In this document: in pieces, positions 19,074-23,223 of the stretch
Layout: each line of letters starts with the position of its first letter
How positions within the stretch are numbered: position 1 is the stretch's first letter
Source: a virus
Length of the DNA stretch: 23,223 nucleotides
IMG/VR virus record: IMGVR_UViG_3300020180_001414
Location: 1-23,223 of that record
Strand: one strand, 5' to 3'
Made by a program: the position numbers and the translations under genes
The notes under the pieces: generated by a model
Told to the model about the DNA's origin: nothing
The model's database searches: none
The model's input: the letters and a program-made list of their open reading frames with translations, nothing else

Positions 19074-19599
19074 TGTCTGTTTTCGGTTGGGTTGGTAATT
19101 CGACCTCTGGCTCATCCCAGTCTTTTGGACCGAACAAGTCATCGACGTGTTTTATTTCTTCAGGTGAGAGCTTTCGTTTTCCTACATACTGACCATTGGT
19201 CACGATAAACTGAGGAGGTTTTCCATCTCGGTAGTTCCATATGAGCTCGATCATCTTGCGGTCTCCTGCGACTGCCATTTTTACTATCTTTTGGACTAGT
19301 GCTTTCTCGATTGGCACCGGCTTACCTTGAGCATCTTTTGCGCCCATTTCCTGCAGGGCTTCGTCGATCAAGGACCTCATTTTCATAGCACCCTTGGGCC
19401 TGCCTGGACCACCCTGATTTCCTGTCACAAACATACCCGTCGAAGGGTCCCTATCCTCCTCTGTAAGCCGTTTTTCACCGTTTATAAACGGTTGCTCTGG
19501 AGCTATCGTAGTATCACTGGTGATACTACCTGTCAGCAGCAAAAGTGGTTCTTTTGGAGCAGATTCTTTCTCGTCATTGTTATTACTCTGTGGTGTCAT
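18958..19599 (-). CDS. Putative terminase small subunit (DUF5681-like)
   Basis: A 213-residue protein with a central GNQGGPGRPKGAMKMRSLID segment (about 55-75), the signature of the DUF5681 family, followed by a helical domain to about 140 and a charged, proline-rich C-terminus. Members often lie directly before the large terminase and are proposed to recognise packaging DNA. The start at MTPQSNNN (ATG 19599) is preferred to 19632, which would extend further into the methyltransferase; it already overlaps that stop by 17 nt. Its 3' end overlaps the large terminase reading frame by about 116 nt with the start chosen there. The family call is good; the packaging role is inferred. Confidence 0.7.
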   Translation of the reverse strand: MTPQSNNNDEKESAPKEPLLLLTGSITSDTTIAPEQPFINGEKRLTEEDRDPSTGMFVTGNQGGPGRPKGAMKMRSLIDEALQEMGAKDAQGKPVPIEKALVQKIVKMAVAGDRKMIELIWNYRDGKPPQFIVTNGQYVGKRKLSPEEIKHVDDLFGPKDWDEPEVELPTQPKTDNGPINPQPETNTKAGESNVRKDTNIEVGRPRGAYEGDS

Positions 19600-20905
19600 A
19601 TTTAGTCTTTGCCCATTCGATCGAGTCACCATTTAGGACCACCTCCTCGGTACCGGTGAAGTCGATCCATCGCTGGACGATTACGTCAGCAAATTTGGGA
19701 TCAAGTTCGATGCCAGCGCACACTCGGCCGGTCTTCTCACAAGCAATGAGTGTGCTGCCACTTCCGAGGAACGGATCGACAATCAAGTCCTCTGCTTTTG
19801 AACTATTGAAGAGCGCATAAGTAATGAGCTCTACAGGCTTTTGTGTCGGATGCTTATACTCATTGACCTTGTCACGCTTCATAGTCCAGATCGTGAACTT
19901 GCCTTCAGTCTCAAGTTGTTTCTGACGCTTTGCCCAGTTAAGTAGCTTTTGTTCGCTATCATGAAAGTCTAAGATCGTATGATGCGTTCGGTCGCCATAG
20001 AAGACTGTTTCAGTTCCTTCTTTGGACGCGTAGAAGAACGGCTCATGTTTCCATCGGTAGTCGCCCCATCCCATTGATGCGGTTGGCTTATTCCATATCA
20101 GCTGATTACGGATTGCCATGCCGAACTTCTTCAAAGCCTTCTCGAATTGGGCTTGGGTTGATGTCGAATGAAATACGTACCATCCAGCCCCAGTCTTTGC
20201 TGCAATAGATATTCTTTCGAATGCTGCCTCGAGAAAAGTATCGAACGCTCCCTCGCTCATATCATCGTTCATTATTCCTTCGCTTGTGTTTTTTCCTCTG
20301 CCGGAATAGTTCACGTTATAAGGCGGGTCGGTGAAGATGCAATCTGCTTTACGATTCTGCATTACTTTTTCCCATGCCACCTGATCGGTTGAGTCGCCGC
20401 ACACAACTGTGTGAGGGCCGAGTTGATAAACATCGCCTACCTTGCTTTTCGGAAGGATCGGAGTTTCAGGTAGCACGTCATCCTGCTCATCGTCATCAAC
20501 AAGAAGATCTCTGTCGAATCCGGTGAGTGTGATATCAAATCCCGACACATCAAGATCTTTCAGTTCAGTGACGATTAGGTTCATGTCCTGACCAGTTAGT
20601 GCATTGAGCTGGTTGTCGGCGATGCGGTACGCTTTGACTTCATCTTCAGTCAAGTCATCAACCATCACATATGGAATAACAGGCTCTCCTTTTTTAGTGA
20701 ATGCTTTTTGCTCCATAAGCGTGTAGCCGAGAAGTTCTGTCATTGCTATGAATCGCCCGTGACCGACTACTATCACTCCGTCCTTATCGAGGATGAGTGA
20801 CTGCTTGCATCCAAATGCTTTTATTGAGCTTGCGATTTTCTCAAGCTGAAAGCCTGGATGCTCTTTAGCGTTCTTCTCGTATTTTTTTACATCTGTTATT
20901 TGCAT
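19583..20905 (-). CDS. ParB-domain / beta-class DNA methyltransferase fusion
   Basis: Residues 1-110 are a ParB/Srx-like N-terminal nuclease-type domain, with VVGHGRFIAM at 47-55 and DDLTEDEVKAYRIADNQL at 83-100. A methyltransferase domain follows with FTDPPYNVNYS (DPPY at 193-196) first and DPFLGSGST (377-385) second, the motif order of beta-class N6-adenine/N4-cytosine enzymes, plus HPTQKP at 352-357. This fusion is known in phages and prophages; whether the ParB part cuts DNA is unclear. ATG 20905 is chosen over the longer 20950, because 20905 is 3 nt after the upstream stop and AATGGAAATAAAT precedes it. The methylation target cannot be read off. Confidence 0.93.
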   Translation of the reverse strand: MQITDVKKYEKNAKEHPGFQLEKIASSIKAFGCKQSLILDKDGVIVVGHGRFIAMTELLGYTLMEQKAFTKKGEPVIPYVMVDDLTEDEVKAYRIADNQLNALTGQDMNLIVTELKDLDVSGFDITLTGFDRDLLVDDDEQDDVLPETPILPKSKVGDVYQLGPHTVVCGDSTDQVAWEKVMQNRKADCIFTDPPYNVNYSGRGKNTSEGIMNDDMSEGAFDTFLEAAFERISIAAKTGAGWYVFHSTSTQAQFEKALKKFGMAIRNQLIWNKPTASMGWGDYRWKHEPFFYASKEGTETVFYGDRTHHTILDFHDSEQKLLNWAKRQKQLETEGKFTIWTMKRDKVNEYKHPTQKPVELITYALFNSSKAEDLIVDPFLGSGSTLIACEKTGRVCAGIELDPKFADVIVQRWIDFTGTEEVVLNGDSIEWAKTKYDTTE

Positions 20906-20907
20906 AT

Positions 20908-21330
20908 TTATTTCCATTGCCATTCTTGTAATGTGGAACTTGCACAACATCCCTCTCGATCGTTATCATCGATATAGTGGTAAATGTTATATGCGTATTG
21001 ATCTTTAGGATCAGCGGGAGTGACACCGATGACCATCCTCTCTTTTCCAAAATGCTTATTTTTGATTATTGAACCCAGCGGAAAATTGTGGAGTTCATGT
21101 TTTATTCTTTTCTTTACTTGATTGTTTAAAGCAATAAAAAATTGCTGTTCTACAGTCTCAAGAAAAGTCGTGATCGCTTCTTTATATTCGGATTTGAATA
21201 TCGGAAGCAAGCTATGCGCTCCAATAATCCAAGCGCCGACAAAATCCGGACGCACACAAAGGAATCTAGCTGAGAGACTTATCGGATTAAGCACAGGTTT
21301 GATTTCTTTTTTGGTACTCTTTTTTGGCAT
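20908..21330 (-). CDS. Hypothetical protein (140 aa)
   Basis: Not recognised. The lysine-rich start (MPKKSTKKEIKP) is followed by LSARFLCVRPDFVGAWIIGA, a helical region to about 75, and a beta-rich end with FPLGSIIKNKHFGKERMVIG and an acidic IDDNDREGCC. The FPLGSII...KERMVIG part resembles an SH3-like beta barrel, but that is impressionistic. It lies 16 nt after the HTH/Cys-rich gene and 2 nt before the methyltransferase start, in the same early operon. No function is assigned. Confidence 0.75.
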   Translation of the reverse strand: MPKKSTKKEIKPVLNPISLSARFLCVRPDFVGAWIIGAHSLLPIFKSEYKEAITTFLETVEQQFFIALNNQVKKRIKHELHNFPLGSIIKNKHFGKERMVIGVTPADPKDQYAYNIYHYIDDNDREGCCASSTLQEWQWK

Positions 21331-21742: not shown

Positions 21743-22141
21743 TCATGCATTATCGAGTGATATCTCTACTTCGACCTTTCCTTTACCGTCGGATGCATAG
21801 TGAGATTCAAACGCCCCATCAAGGAACTTGTCATTTTGGAAGAGAGCATCGGCCAGTCCCTTGAAGACGTTGTCTGGATCAGCATGCACGCCATTGACCC
21901 AGTAGATTACGATCGACATATGCGCCCTAGCTGATATTTTCGTGGTGAGTGGCTGTGTGCTTTCGAACTTGAACTCTGGGTACTCTCGGTAGAAAATACT
22001 ACGAACATATTCTTTCCAAGCGTGATACTTCTTTGCCTTTGGCAGCCATAGCGCTCTGCCGACCACCCGAACGTATGGGGCTGGATTACCTTCGATGTCA
22101 TCCGGATTTCCTTTTATAGTGAATTTGATTATTTTATTCAT
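21743..22141 (-). CDS. rusA: RusA-type Holliday junction resolvase
   Basis: Cuts four-way DNA junctions, helping resolve branched replication or recombination intermediates before packaging. The 132 residues match the family size. The defining motif HADPDNVFKGLADALFQNDK carries Asp at the D-x-D positions with Asn and a Lys following, and a further Asp in KFLDGAF completes the acidic metal site. The N-terminus FTIKGNPDDIEGNPAPYVRV matches the usual first strands. It lies 5 nt after the replication gene. The name is used for the family, not for a specific orthologue. Confidence 0.9.
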   Translation of the reverse strand: MNKIIKFTIKGNPDDIEGNPAPYVRVVGRALWLPKAKKYHAWKEYVRSIFYREYPEFKFESTQPLTTKISARAHMSIVIYWVNGVHADPDNVFKGLADALFQNDKFLDGAFESHYASDGKGKVEVEISLDNA

Positions 22142-22146
22142 AGGTC

Positions 22147-22683
22147 TTAGTGATTGAATCTGTTAATGGTCATTTTTCGAGTAAGTTCTCGAGTCATTTC
22201 TGAAAAGTTATCCACAGGGTCCCTAATACTAGGTTTCTCTTTTTTCCCTAGATTCTGTGTGTTAACTTCCTTTACTACTTTTGGTAAAGAGGATTTACCA
22301 CTTCTGGTTAACTCTCTTAACTGGTTAATTTCGTTTACTACTTTATCCACATCCATATGCAGGTTTAATTTGTAGCGATTTCCCCTGGACCTTTGCTGCA
22401 CAAAAATCACCCCGACTTTGATCAGGTTTTGAAGTGCAGTATTTACGGCTGGACGAGACAAACCAGTACCATAATCGAGTCGCCTGCCCTGACTTGTTTT
22501 GATGCCGTTTTCGAATTGAGAGAAGCTGATATTATCTTCGTCCTTATGAAAACCGAACGTGCGACGACATATGTAAAGAAGGCATCGGGCTTCCGCCTCT
22601 GAGACGCGCGGAAGAACAAGATCCAAAATTACATTTGGAATCTGGGAGCTGTTTGGTATTAAGTTATGTGTTTTTTCGTCCAT
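22147..22683 (-). CDS. Replication protein O-like initiator (N-terminal domain protein)
   Basis: Binds origin iterons and recruits the helicase in lambda-type replication. Residues 12-60 match the family start: SQIPNVILDLVLPRVSEAEA, then CLLYICRRTFGFHKDEDNIS and SFSQF, a winged-helix fold. A second part (about 75-110) has LSRPAVNTALQNLIKVGVIF, a winged-helix-type recognition helix. The rest is short and charged, with KVVNEIN and KVVKEVN repeats. At 178 residues it is shorter than lambda O, so the C-terminal helicase-binding part may be reduced. The gene holds two DnaA boxes and a repeated DNA segment. It is preceded by a structured 126-nt leader. Confidence 0.82.
   Translation of the reverse strand: MDEKTHNLIPNSSQIPNVILDLVLPRVSEAEARCLLYICRRTFGFHKDEDNISFSQFENGIKTSQGRRLDYGTGLSRPAVNTALQNLIKVGVIFVQQRSRGNRYKLNLHMDVDKVVNEINQLRELTRSGKSSLPKVVKEVNTQNLGKKEKPSIRDPVDNFSEMTRELTRKMTINRFNH
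22203..22218 (+). repeat. 16-bp repeat with a consensus DnaA box (copy 2)
   Basis: AAAAGTTATCCACAGG, identical to 1171-1186, with TTATCCACA at 22208-22216. It lies inside the replication-protein gene, encoding part of PVDNFS on the minus strand. DnaA binding is inferred. Confidence 0.5.
22261..22281 (-). repeat. Iteron-like 21-bp repeat, copy A
   Basis: On the minus strand it reads AAAGTAGTAAA, then GGAA, then GTTAAC. It matches copy B (22324-22344) at 19 of 21 positions and lies 63 bp from it, about six helical turns. Both copies are in the same codon frame (KVVKEVN and KVVNEIN), so the similarity could be protein-driven. It may be an origin iteron within the O-like gene, as in lambda. Confidence 0.4.
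22324..22344 (-). repeat. Iteron-like 21-bp repeat, copy B
   Basis: On the minus strand it reads AAAGTAGTAAA, CGAA, ATTAAC, two mismatches from copy A. It touches the second DnaA box at 22343-22351. The AT-rich stretch between the copies contains GGTTAAC and TTAAC elements that might serve as unwinding DNA. Confidence 0.4.
22343..22351 (+). other. Consensus DnaA box inside the replication gene
   Basis: TTATCCACA exactly, in the same orientation as the box at 22208-22216 and 135 bp away. A given 9-mer is expected about 0.2 times in both strands of this window, so three copies, two of them in the initiator gene, suggest a functional origin. Confidence 0.45.
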
Positions 22684-22809: not shown

Positions 22810-23223
22810 TTACTTGCCACTTTTCACTGCAGCCTTGGCTGGCTTCTTGGGTTTATCTTCTGTCTTTGAATCTCGAAGGTCTTTTTCGAATTTCTGTTCA
22901 GGTGTCAGCTCAGGCACTTGTTCGCCTTTTAATTCAGCGATCTTTTTCTGAGCAAACTCCTGCACTCGTGCGAATCCGTCCTCGAGGACATCTGGTCGCA
23001 TCGACTCTATTGCGGACCAACTGCGGGTCTGGAAGGCGTACTCAAGCGCATCAGTTTTATTTTTCTTTTCCTGAGCTCCGGTACTTGGCCAAATTGATAC
23101 GAGGTAACCCTCGATCTCTTCAAGCCATCGCTTCCTTTCGAGGACCCACTTACGCTTGTCTTCTTCGGTACGGATCAGCTCGCCGGCATCCCTTCCTGCA
23201 GGGCTAAAGCGAGCTGTTATAGG
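22810..23223 (-). CDS. Unrecognised protein, 5' end outside the window
   Basis: The minus-strand frame is open from the window edge to a TAA at 22810, giving the last 137 residues. The sequence is charged and helical, with Trp-rich RKWVLERKRWLEEIEGYLVS early, then EYAFQTRSWSAIESMRPDVL and a Lys/Ala/Pro-rich C-terminal tail (KPKKPAKAAVKSGK). No catalytic motif is visible. It precedes the replication gene in the early direction, so a DNA-metabolism role is plausible but unsupported. An ATG at 23001 is internal and should not be taken as the start. Confidence 0.75.
   Translation of the reverse strand, partial: PITARFSPAGRDAGELIRTEEDKRKWVLERKRWLEEIEGYLVSIWPSTGAQEKKNKTDALEYAFQTRSWSAIESMRPDVLEDGFARVQEFAQKKIAELKGEQVPELTPEQKFEKDLRDSKTEDKPKKPAKAAVKSGK

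Follow-up and report, generated by a model that had tools for sequence, protein, structure and literature searches.

The last third of an O-like gene in a 23,223-nucleotide stretch of viral DNA (IMG/VR record IMGVR_UViG_3300020180_001414, positions 1 to 23,223; this whole stretch is referred to here as the window) is almost certainly the replication origin of the phage, and it is very probably an origin of the lambda type in which host DnaA takes part. Origins located within O genes are already known; DnaA boxes built into such an origin, without P, in a Patescibacteria phage lineage appear to be undescribed in the searched literature, where no replication origin was found for any Patescibacteria phage (most subscription journals lay outside the search). 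Together with its initiator, a self-contained origin of ~160 bp would offer a basis on which to build replicons for the ultra-small, hard-to-manipulate Patescibacteria. Both the proposed dependence on host DnaA and the residue 78 pattern described below are directly testable with purified proteins.

The O-Type Initiator Gene and Its Neighborhood

The source, a 23.2-kb virus record, is apparently a phage fragment in which the right-end genes all read leftwards. Their order runs from a Sak4-like AAA ATPase, truncated where the window ends, through the O-like gene, RusA, small unknown genes and a ParB-like/DNA methyltransferase fusion to the terminase and portal genes (Table 1). The fusion is a single gene at 19583-20950 that comprises a ParB-like domain and an N6/N4 DNA methyltransferase.

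The first-pass annotation, made from the sequence alone, had proposed an O-like initiator gene, and this assignment is borne out by a Phage_rep_O winged-helix N-domain, evident from the match to PF04492 (1.4e-9), from O-like PHROGs and from the winged helix-turn-helix of an AlphaFold2 model. The model (mean pLDDT 72.6) displays an N-terminal winged helix-turn-helix with blocks of about 90, a low-confidence linker that is encoded by the origin and whose iteron-encoded part is mostly at 37-62, and a short C-terminal helix. Searches of the PDB by sequence and by fold retrieved weak generic winged-helix matches only, and no Rep-family initiator was found at the origin, the PF04492 and PHROG matches being to the O family only.

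Table 1. Coordinates of the origin, its surroundings and the related prophages (window positions unless a contig is named)
Feature	Position	Strand	Remarks
O-type replication initiator gene, 178 aa	22147..22683	-	PF04492 E=1.4e-9; phrog_18020 and phrog_678 'replication initiation O-like'; AlphaFold2 model
Codons 76-78 (Ser-Arg-Pro), start of predicted recognition helix	22450..22458	-	Residue 78 tracks iteron base 3
Origin core, frozen synonymous sites (residues 107-160)	22204..22365	.	Codon-identity comparison
DnaA box 1	22343..22351	+	TTATCCACA, coding strand TGTGGATAA; ends 4 bp before iteron 1
Iteron 1	22324..22338	.	Coding strand GTAAACGAAATTAAC
Iteron 2	22307..22321	.	Coding strand GTTAAGAGAGTTAAC
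Iteron 3	22284..22298	.	Coding strand GTAAATCCTCTTTAC
Iteron 4	22261..22275	.	Coding strand GTAAAGGAAGTTAAC
Purine-rich tract after iteron 4, possible unwinding element	22234..22260	-	Coding strand ACACAGAATCTAGGGAAAAAAGAGAAA; largely conserved in all iteron types
DnaA box 2	22208..22216	+	TTATCCACA; in relatives TTATGCACA, TTATTCACA or inverted TTATCCACA beside it
RusA-like Holliday junction resolvase	21743..22141	-	Adjoins O, at lambda's P position; PF05866, phrog_6537
Sak4-like AAA ATPase, C-terminal part, upstream of O	22810..23223	-	Cut by window end; 98% identical to L002:978-2165; homologues match phrog_124 Sak4-like and PF13479
Prophage	G007:C1 about 181.0-217.5 kb		Presumed ychF at one end
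Prophage	G006:C1 about 311.0-349.2 kb		Phage integrase at one end, presumed gapA at other

Iterons and DnaA Boxes within the Coding Sequence

Four 15-bp palindromic iterons of the form GTWAA-N5-TTWAC occupy the last third of the O gene at spacings of 17, 23 and 23 bp. A 21-bp segment repeated with two mismatches at a 63-bp spacing had been annotated previously, and that repeat is exactly as described (22261-22281 and 22324-22344); its copies are iterons 4 and 1, however, of an array that consists of four palindromes and not of two direct repeats. Under a general GT-N11-AC rule, itself prompted by the data, at least four palindromes in the window O gene correspond to p=0.0006 in synonymous-codon shuffles of that gene. 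The chance value for the iteron consensus is 0.07, a figure that is biased because the consensus was derived from the same four copies.

The iteron array is flanked by two DnaA boxes 135 bp apart, both of which are exact TTATCCACA 9-mers on the same strand, as the annotation had stated. Synonymous-codon shuffles of the window O gene give p=0.004 for at least two DnaA boxes, and the window contains five copies of TTATNCACA, a count reached in 0 of 100 shuffles, where 0.79 would be expected. Elsewhere in the window, a third exact TTATCCACA at 1176 and a fifth iteron match at 1269, the latter resembling a terminator hairpin, were rejected; neither recurs at the corresponding position of the two prophages. 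Between late genes, 85 bp separate this TTATCCACA from the iteron-like palindrome (1176-1283).

The DNA between the boxes and repeats had also been described as AT-rich. AT content is indeed raised from box to box (0.643 vs 0.549 for the window, within the top 4.6% of 126-bp stretches), but modestly only, with 0.591 in the segment from iteron 4 to box 2. By the iterons, the purine fraction reaches up to 0.8, with AT at only 0.59-0.64. GC skew, which the annotation had suggested plotting, falls monotonically in one prophage and rises in the other with no switch at the O gene; it is uninformative.

Selection at the DNA Level

Relatives were drawn from IMG/VR, genomes mostly labelled Patescibacteria, and a class-wide genome search. 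Among close relatives, identical residues are encoded by identical codons at a frequency of 0.881 over residues 107-160 vs 0.519 elsewhere, and in the wider set the corresponding values are 0.770 and 0.451 (permutation p<1/20000). Synonymous-site conservation in homologues, the check that had been proposed for this origin, is therefore confined to the origin segment (88% vs 52%). Across 23 non-redundant genes, 31 DnaA boxes are found where 5000 synonymous-codon shuffles give 3.8 on average and a maximum of 11, and 84 palindromes where such shuffles give 21.8 and at most 38. Comparison thus shows the iterons and DnaA boxes to be under selection at the DNA level.

Were the repeats selected as peptide, as a repeated motif of the linker with the DNA repeats a by-product, iterons 1 and 4 would be expected to share a codon phase and to encode similar peptides, as they do (VVNEIN and VVKEVN). 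The annotation had raised this caveat for the two copies of its repeat, and it is true of that pair; the remaining iterons, 2 and 3, lie in the other two phases. Because the iterons use all three codon phases (0, 2, 1, 0 along the coding strand), a peptide repeat cannot account for the array, and this reading was rejected. The frozen synonymous sites and the low model confidence of the linker likewise speak against it, as do relatives whose peptides differ over the iterons while the palindromes persist. A peptide kept over freely varying DNA had been named as the pattern that would refute an origin; the homologues display the reverse, altering the peptide and keeping the DNA repeats and DnaA boxes. 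Selection on the peptide is thus extremely improbable.

Conservation could also stem from an overlapping antisense gene (22154-22375, + strand) or from RNA structure, since a 73-aa antisense ORF in the window covers exactly the origin segment and the palindromes could form RNA hairpins. The antisense gene was rejected because its frame contains stops in most relatives beyond the closest group (e.g., at gene nt 312, 351 or 414), and RNA structure fails to explain either the covariation with the DNA-recognition helix described below or the DnaA boxes kept on either strand, which leaves both sources very improbable.

The boxes themselves are retained in varied forms. Box 1 is encoded by GAT-GTG-GAT-AAR in most relatives. 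Where the basal unwinding system of bacterial oriC has DnaA-trios adjoining a DnaA box, the window has GTAGTA following box 1, and this is not kept in every relative. At box 2, an Asp residue is replaced by His in L003, L005 and L012, yet the sequence reads TTATGCACA and TTATNCACA is kept; in L009, L013, L014, L026, L032 and L080, an inverted TTATCCACA lies on the other strand beside box 2 and the peptide is different, with both forms present in L009 and L080. The box-to-box spacing is nearly fixed at 135 or 147 bp. In two relatives, L016 and L017, the iterons stand without any DnaA box, so that a need for DnaA is not universal, and L019 keeps box 1 alone. Both L016 and L017 carry a C-terminal extension; a rule equating this extension with the absence of DnaA boxes was rejected, since L035, L021 and L019 have the extension together with boxes. 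In the long O variants L016, L017, L019 and L035 the extension measures ~130 aa, gave no confident Pfam match in the three scanned (L016, L019 and L035), and may be a helicase-contacting domain.

Iteron Type and the Recognition Helix

All four iterons change type jointly among relatives, with half-sites of GTWAA (type A), GTCWA (B), GTTCA (C) or GTYCG (D), iterons 2 and 3 often being imperfect in type C. Residues 76-78 switch with iteron type, reading SRP in A, SRQ in B, ARA in C and ARS in D, and residue 78 stands at the start of the recognition helix (residues 77-90 in the AlphaFold2 model). Comparison therefore shows that the iterons covary with the predicted recognition helix. When each residue is assigned one base class, 28 of 34 non-redundant O genes, including those of Acinetobacter phage Ab1656-2 and Pasteurella phage Pmp13, are consistent between residue 78 and iteron type, whereas 20,000 shuffles average 18 and reach at most 25. 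Residue 78 and iteron type each change 17 times on a tree that is weakly resolved, and a tree-corrected pair test of the pattern has no power, as supported branches are too few. For L021, L043 and L044, iteron types were called from the helix, with the protein sequences in view, and a palindrome scan confirmed all three. The residue 78 pattern is thus a possible recognition code legible from each O gene alone. Residue 78 predicts iteron base 3 in many O-like phages (the L003-L171 set, MZ675741.1 and OR544130.1).

Hosts, Prophages and Helicase Loading

Colinear prophages homologous to the window are integrated in two chromosomal contigs of Patescibacteria MAGs (Table 1), one from Parcubacteria bacterium C7867-008 (G006) and the other labelled 'uncultured bacterium' (G007). 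From their sequences, we take the flanking host genes to be gapA and ychF, respectively. A DnaA with the GGRDHTTV helix is encoded in all seven host genomes searched, most of which have DnaA-box matches adjoining dnaA, and a DnaB match was retrieved from six of the seven. DciA gave no match in these seven genomes, and the PF01695 matches above the cut-off are DnaA itself. Neither DnaB nor a DnaC-type, DciA or lambda-P protein was detected in the two prophages at the level of Pfam and PHROGs, and lambda-P (PF06992) was found neither in the window nor in the prophage-bearing genomes or relatives, RusA being the gene that follows O. As the MAGs are incomplete, these absences are provisional, and one of the unknown early genes could encode a loader that has diverged beyond recognition by Pfam or PHROGs.

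Outside the clade, a DnaB-family helicase is encoded near O in the O-like phages L022, L047, L120, L126, L129, L132, L141 and L147. Among ten out-of-clade O-like phages with DnaB or P near O, none carries a DnaA box at the iterons; several box-free phages are also without a neighboring helicase. This contrast between clades, which is not phylogenetically independent because the box carriers are largely one clade, is suggestive of DnaA acting in place of a loader.

Comparison with Known Origins and Proposed Mechanism

Lambda gene O contains four inverted repeats to which O dimers bind, opening an adjoining AT-rich tract that has its purines on one strand (PMC5043065), and P then delivers DnaB (PMC5043065; PMC3985674). 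An analogy with this layout had been drawn in the annotation and is supported by the four palindromic iterons in an O-type gene. The phage origin resembles those of lambda and lambdoid phages in its location within the O gene and in its four inverted-repeat iterons followed by a one-strand purine tract (PMC5043065), but differs from lambda in that its 15-bp iterons are shorter, two DnaA boxes of consensus sequence fall within it, its AT-richness is much weaker and RusA, not P, comes after O. Ab1656-2 and Pmp13 likewise possess palindromic GT-N11-AC iterons in their own O genes and follow the same residue 78 pattern; the difference is that a P-type protein follows O and that the O gene lacks a DnaA box.

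In the iteron plasmids P1, F, RK2, pSC101 and R6K, a single origin brings together DnaA boxes, iterons and a segment at which the DNA opens (PMC4980987; PMC5043065), and for RK2 the DnaA boxes are reported to be the site of helicase delivery (Pacek 2001, as cited in PMC4980987). DnaA boxes sit inside the phage origin too. The plasmids, however, rely on Rep initiators and mostly on direct-repeat iterons bound as monomers, whereas here the initiator is O-type, the iterons are palindromes and the origin lies within coding sequence. As read from its sequence, the phage origin pairs an initiator and iterons of the lambda type with DnaA boxes of the plasmid type.

In the mechanism that we propose, O dimers would bind the four 15-bp palindromic iterons through the winged helix-turn-helix, like lambda O, while host DnaA would bind one box beside iteron 1 and another past the purine-rich tract. 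Together, O and DnaA would open the DNA between the boxes. DnaA would then, on balance, bring in the host replicative helicase, since neither a helicase nor a loader of the P/DnaC type was detected among the phage genes. We infer protein binding, strand opening and helicase recruitment at the origin, all three, from sequence: conservation and gene content make the direct participation of host DnaA likely, and DnaA-based recruitment of the host helicase is slightly favored.

The boxes of an O-type origin might instead serve transcription or the sensing of DnaA levels and have no role in opening or helicase loading. Lambda provides grounds for this view, as two DnaA-box-like sites downstream of pO are bound by DnaA (PMC3985674), which acts on transcription by stimulating pR (PMC3985674; PMC7466680). 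In the present phage, which itself encodes no detectable loader, the boxes lie within the gene to either side of the iterons, their spacing is nearly fixed and they are not at any detectable promoter; a solely regulatory function is unlikely. Returning to an origin at which DnaA participates directly, a broader proposal would be that host DnaA has replaced the phage loader in this Patescibacteria phage lineage, by way of boxes in the initiator coding sequence, and that in O initiators generally residue 78 determines the third base of the iteron (Pro: A/T, Gln: C, Arg/Lys: G, Asp/Glu: C), such that specificity can be read from a phage's own gene; we give this combination an even chance.

Two placements of O genes stand apart. 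In L026 (3654-3995), the O gene begins ~340 bp past a ribosomal protein operon with early phage genes absent between them, which may reflect a truncated prophage, an unusual attachment site or an assembly join. The 59.9-kb record IMGVR_UViG_3300025323_000513 (L002 and L040) contains two O genes, of types A and B, in the same orientation and ~38 kb apart, perhaps representing neighboring prophages or a joined assembly.
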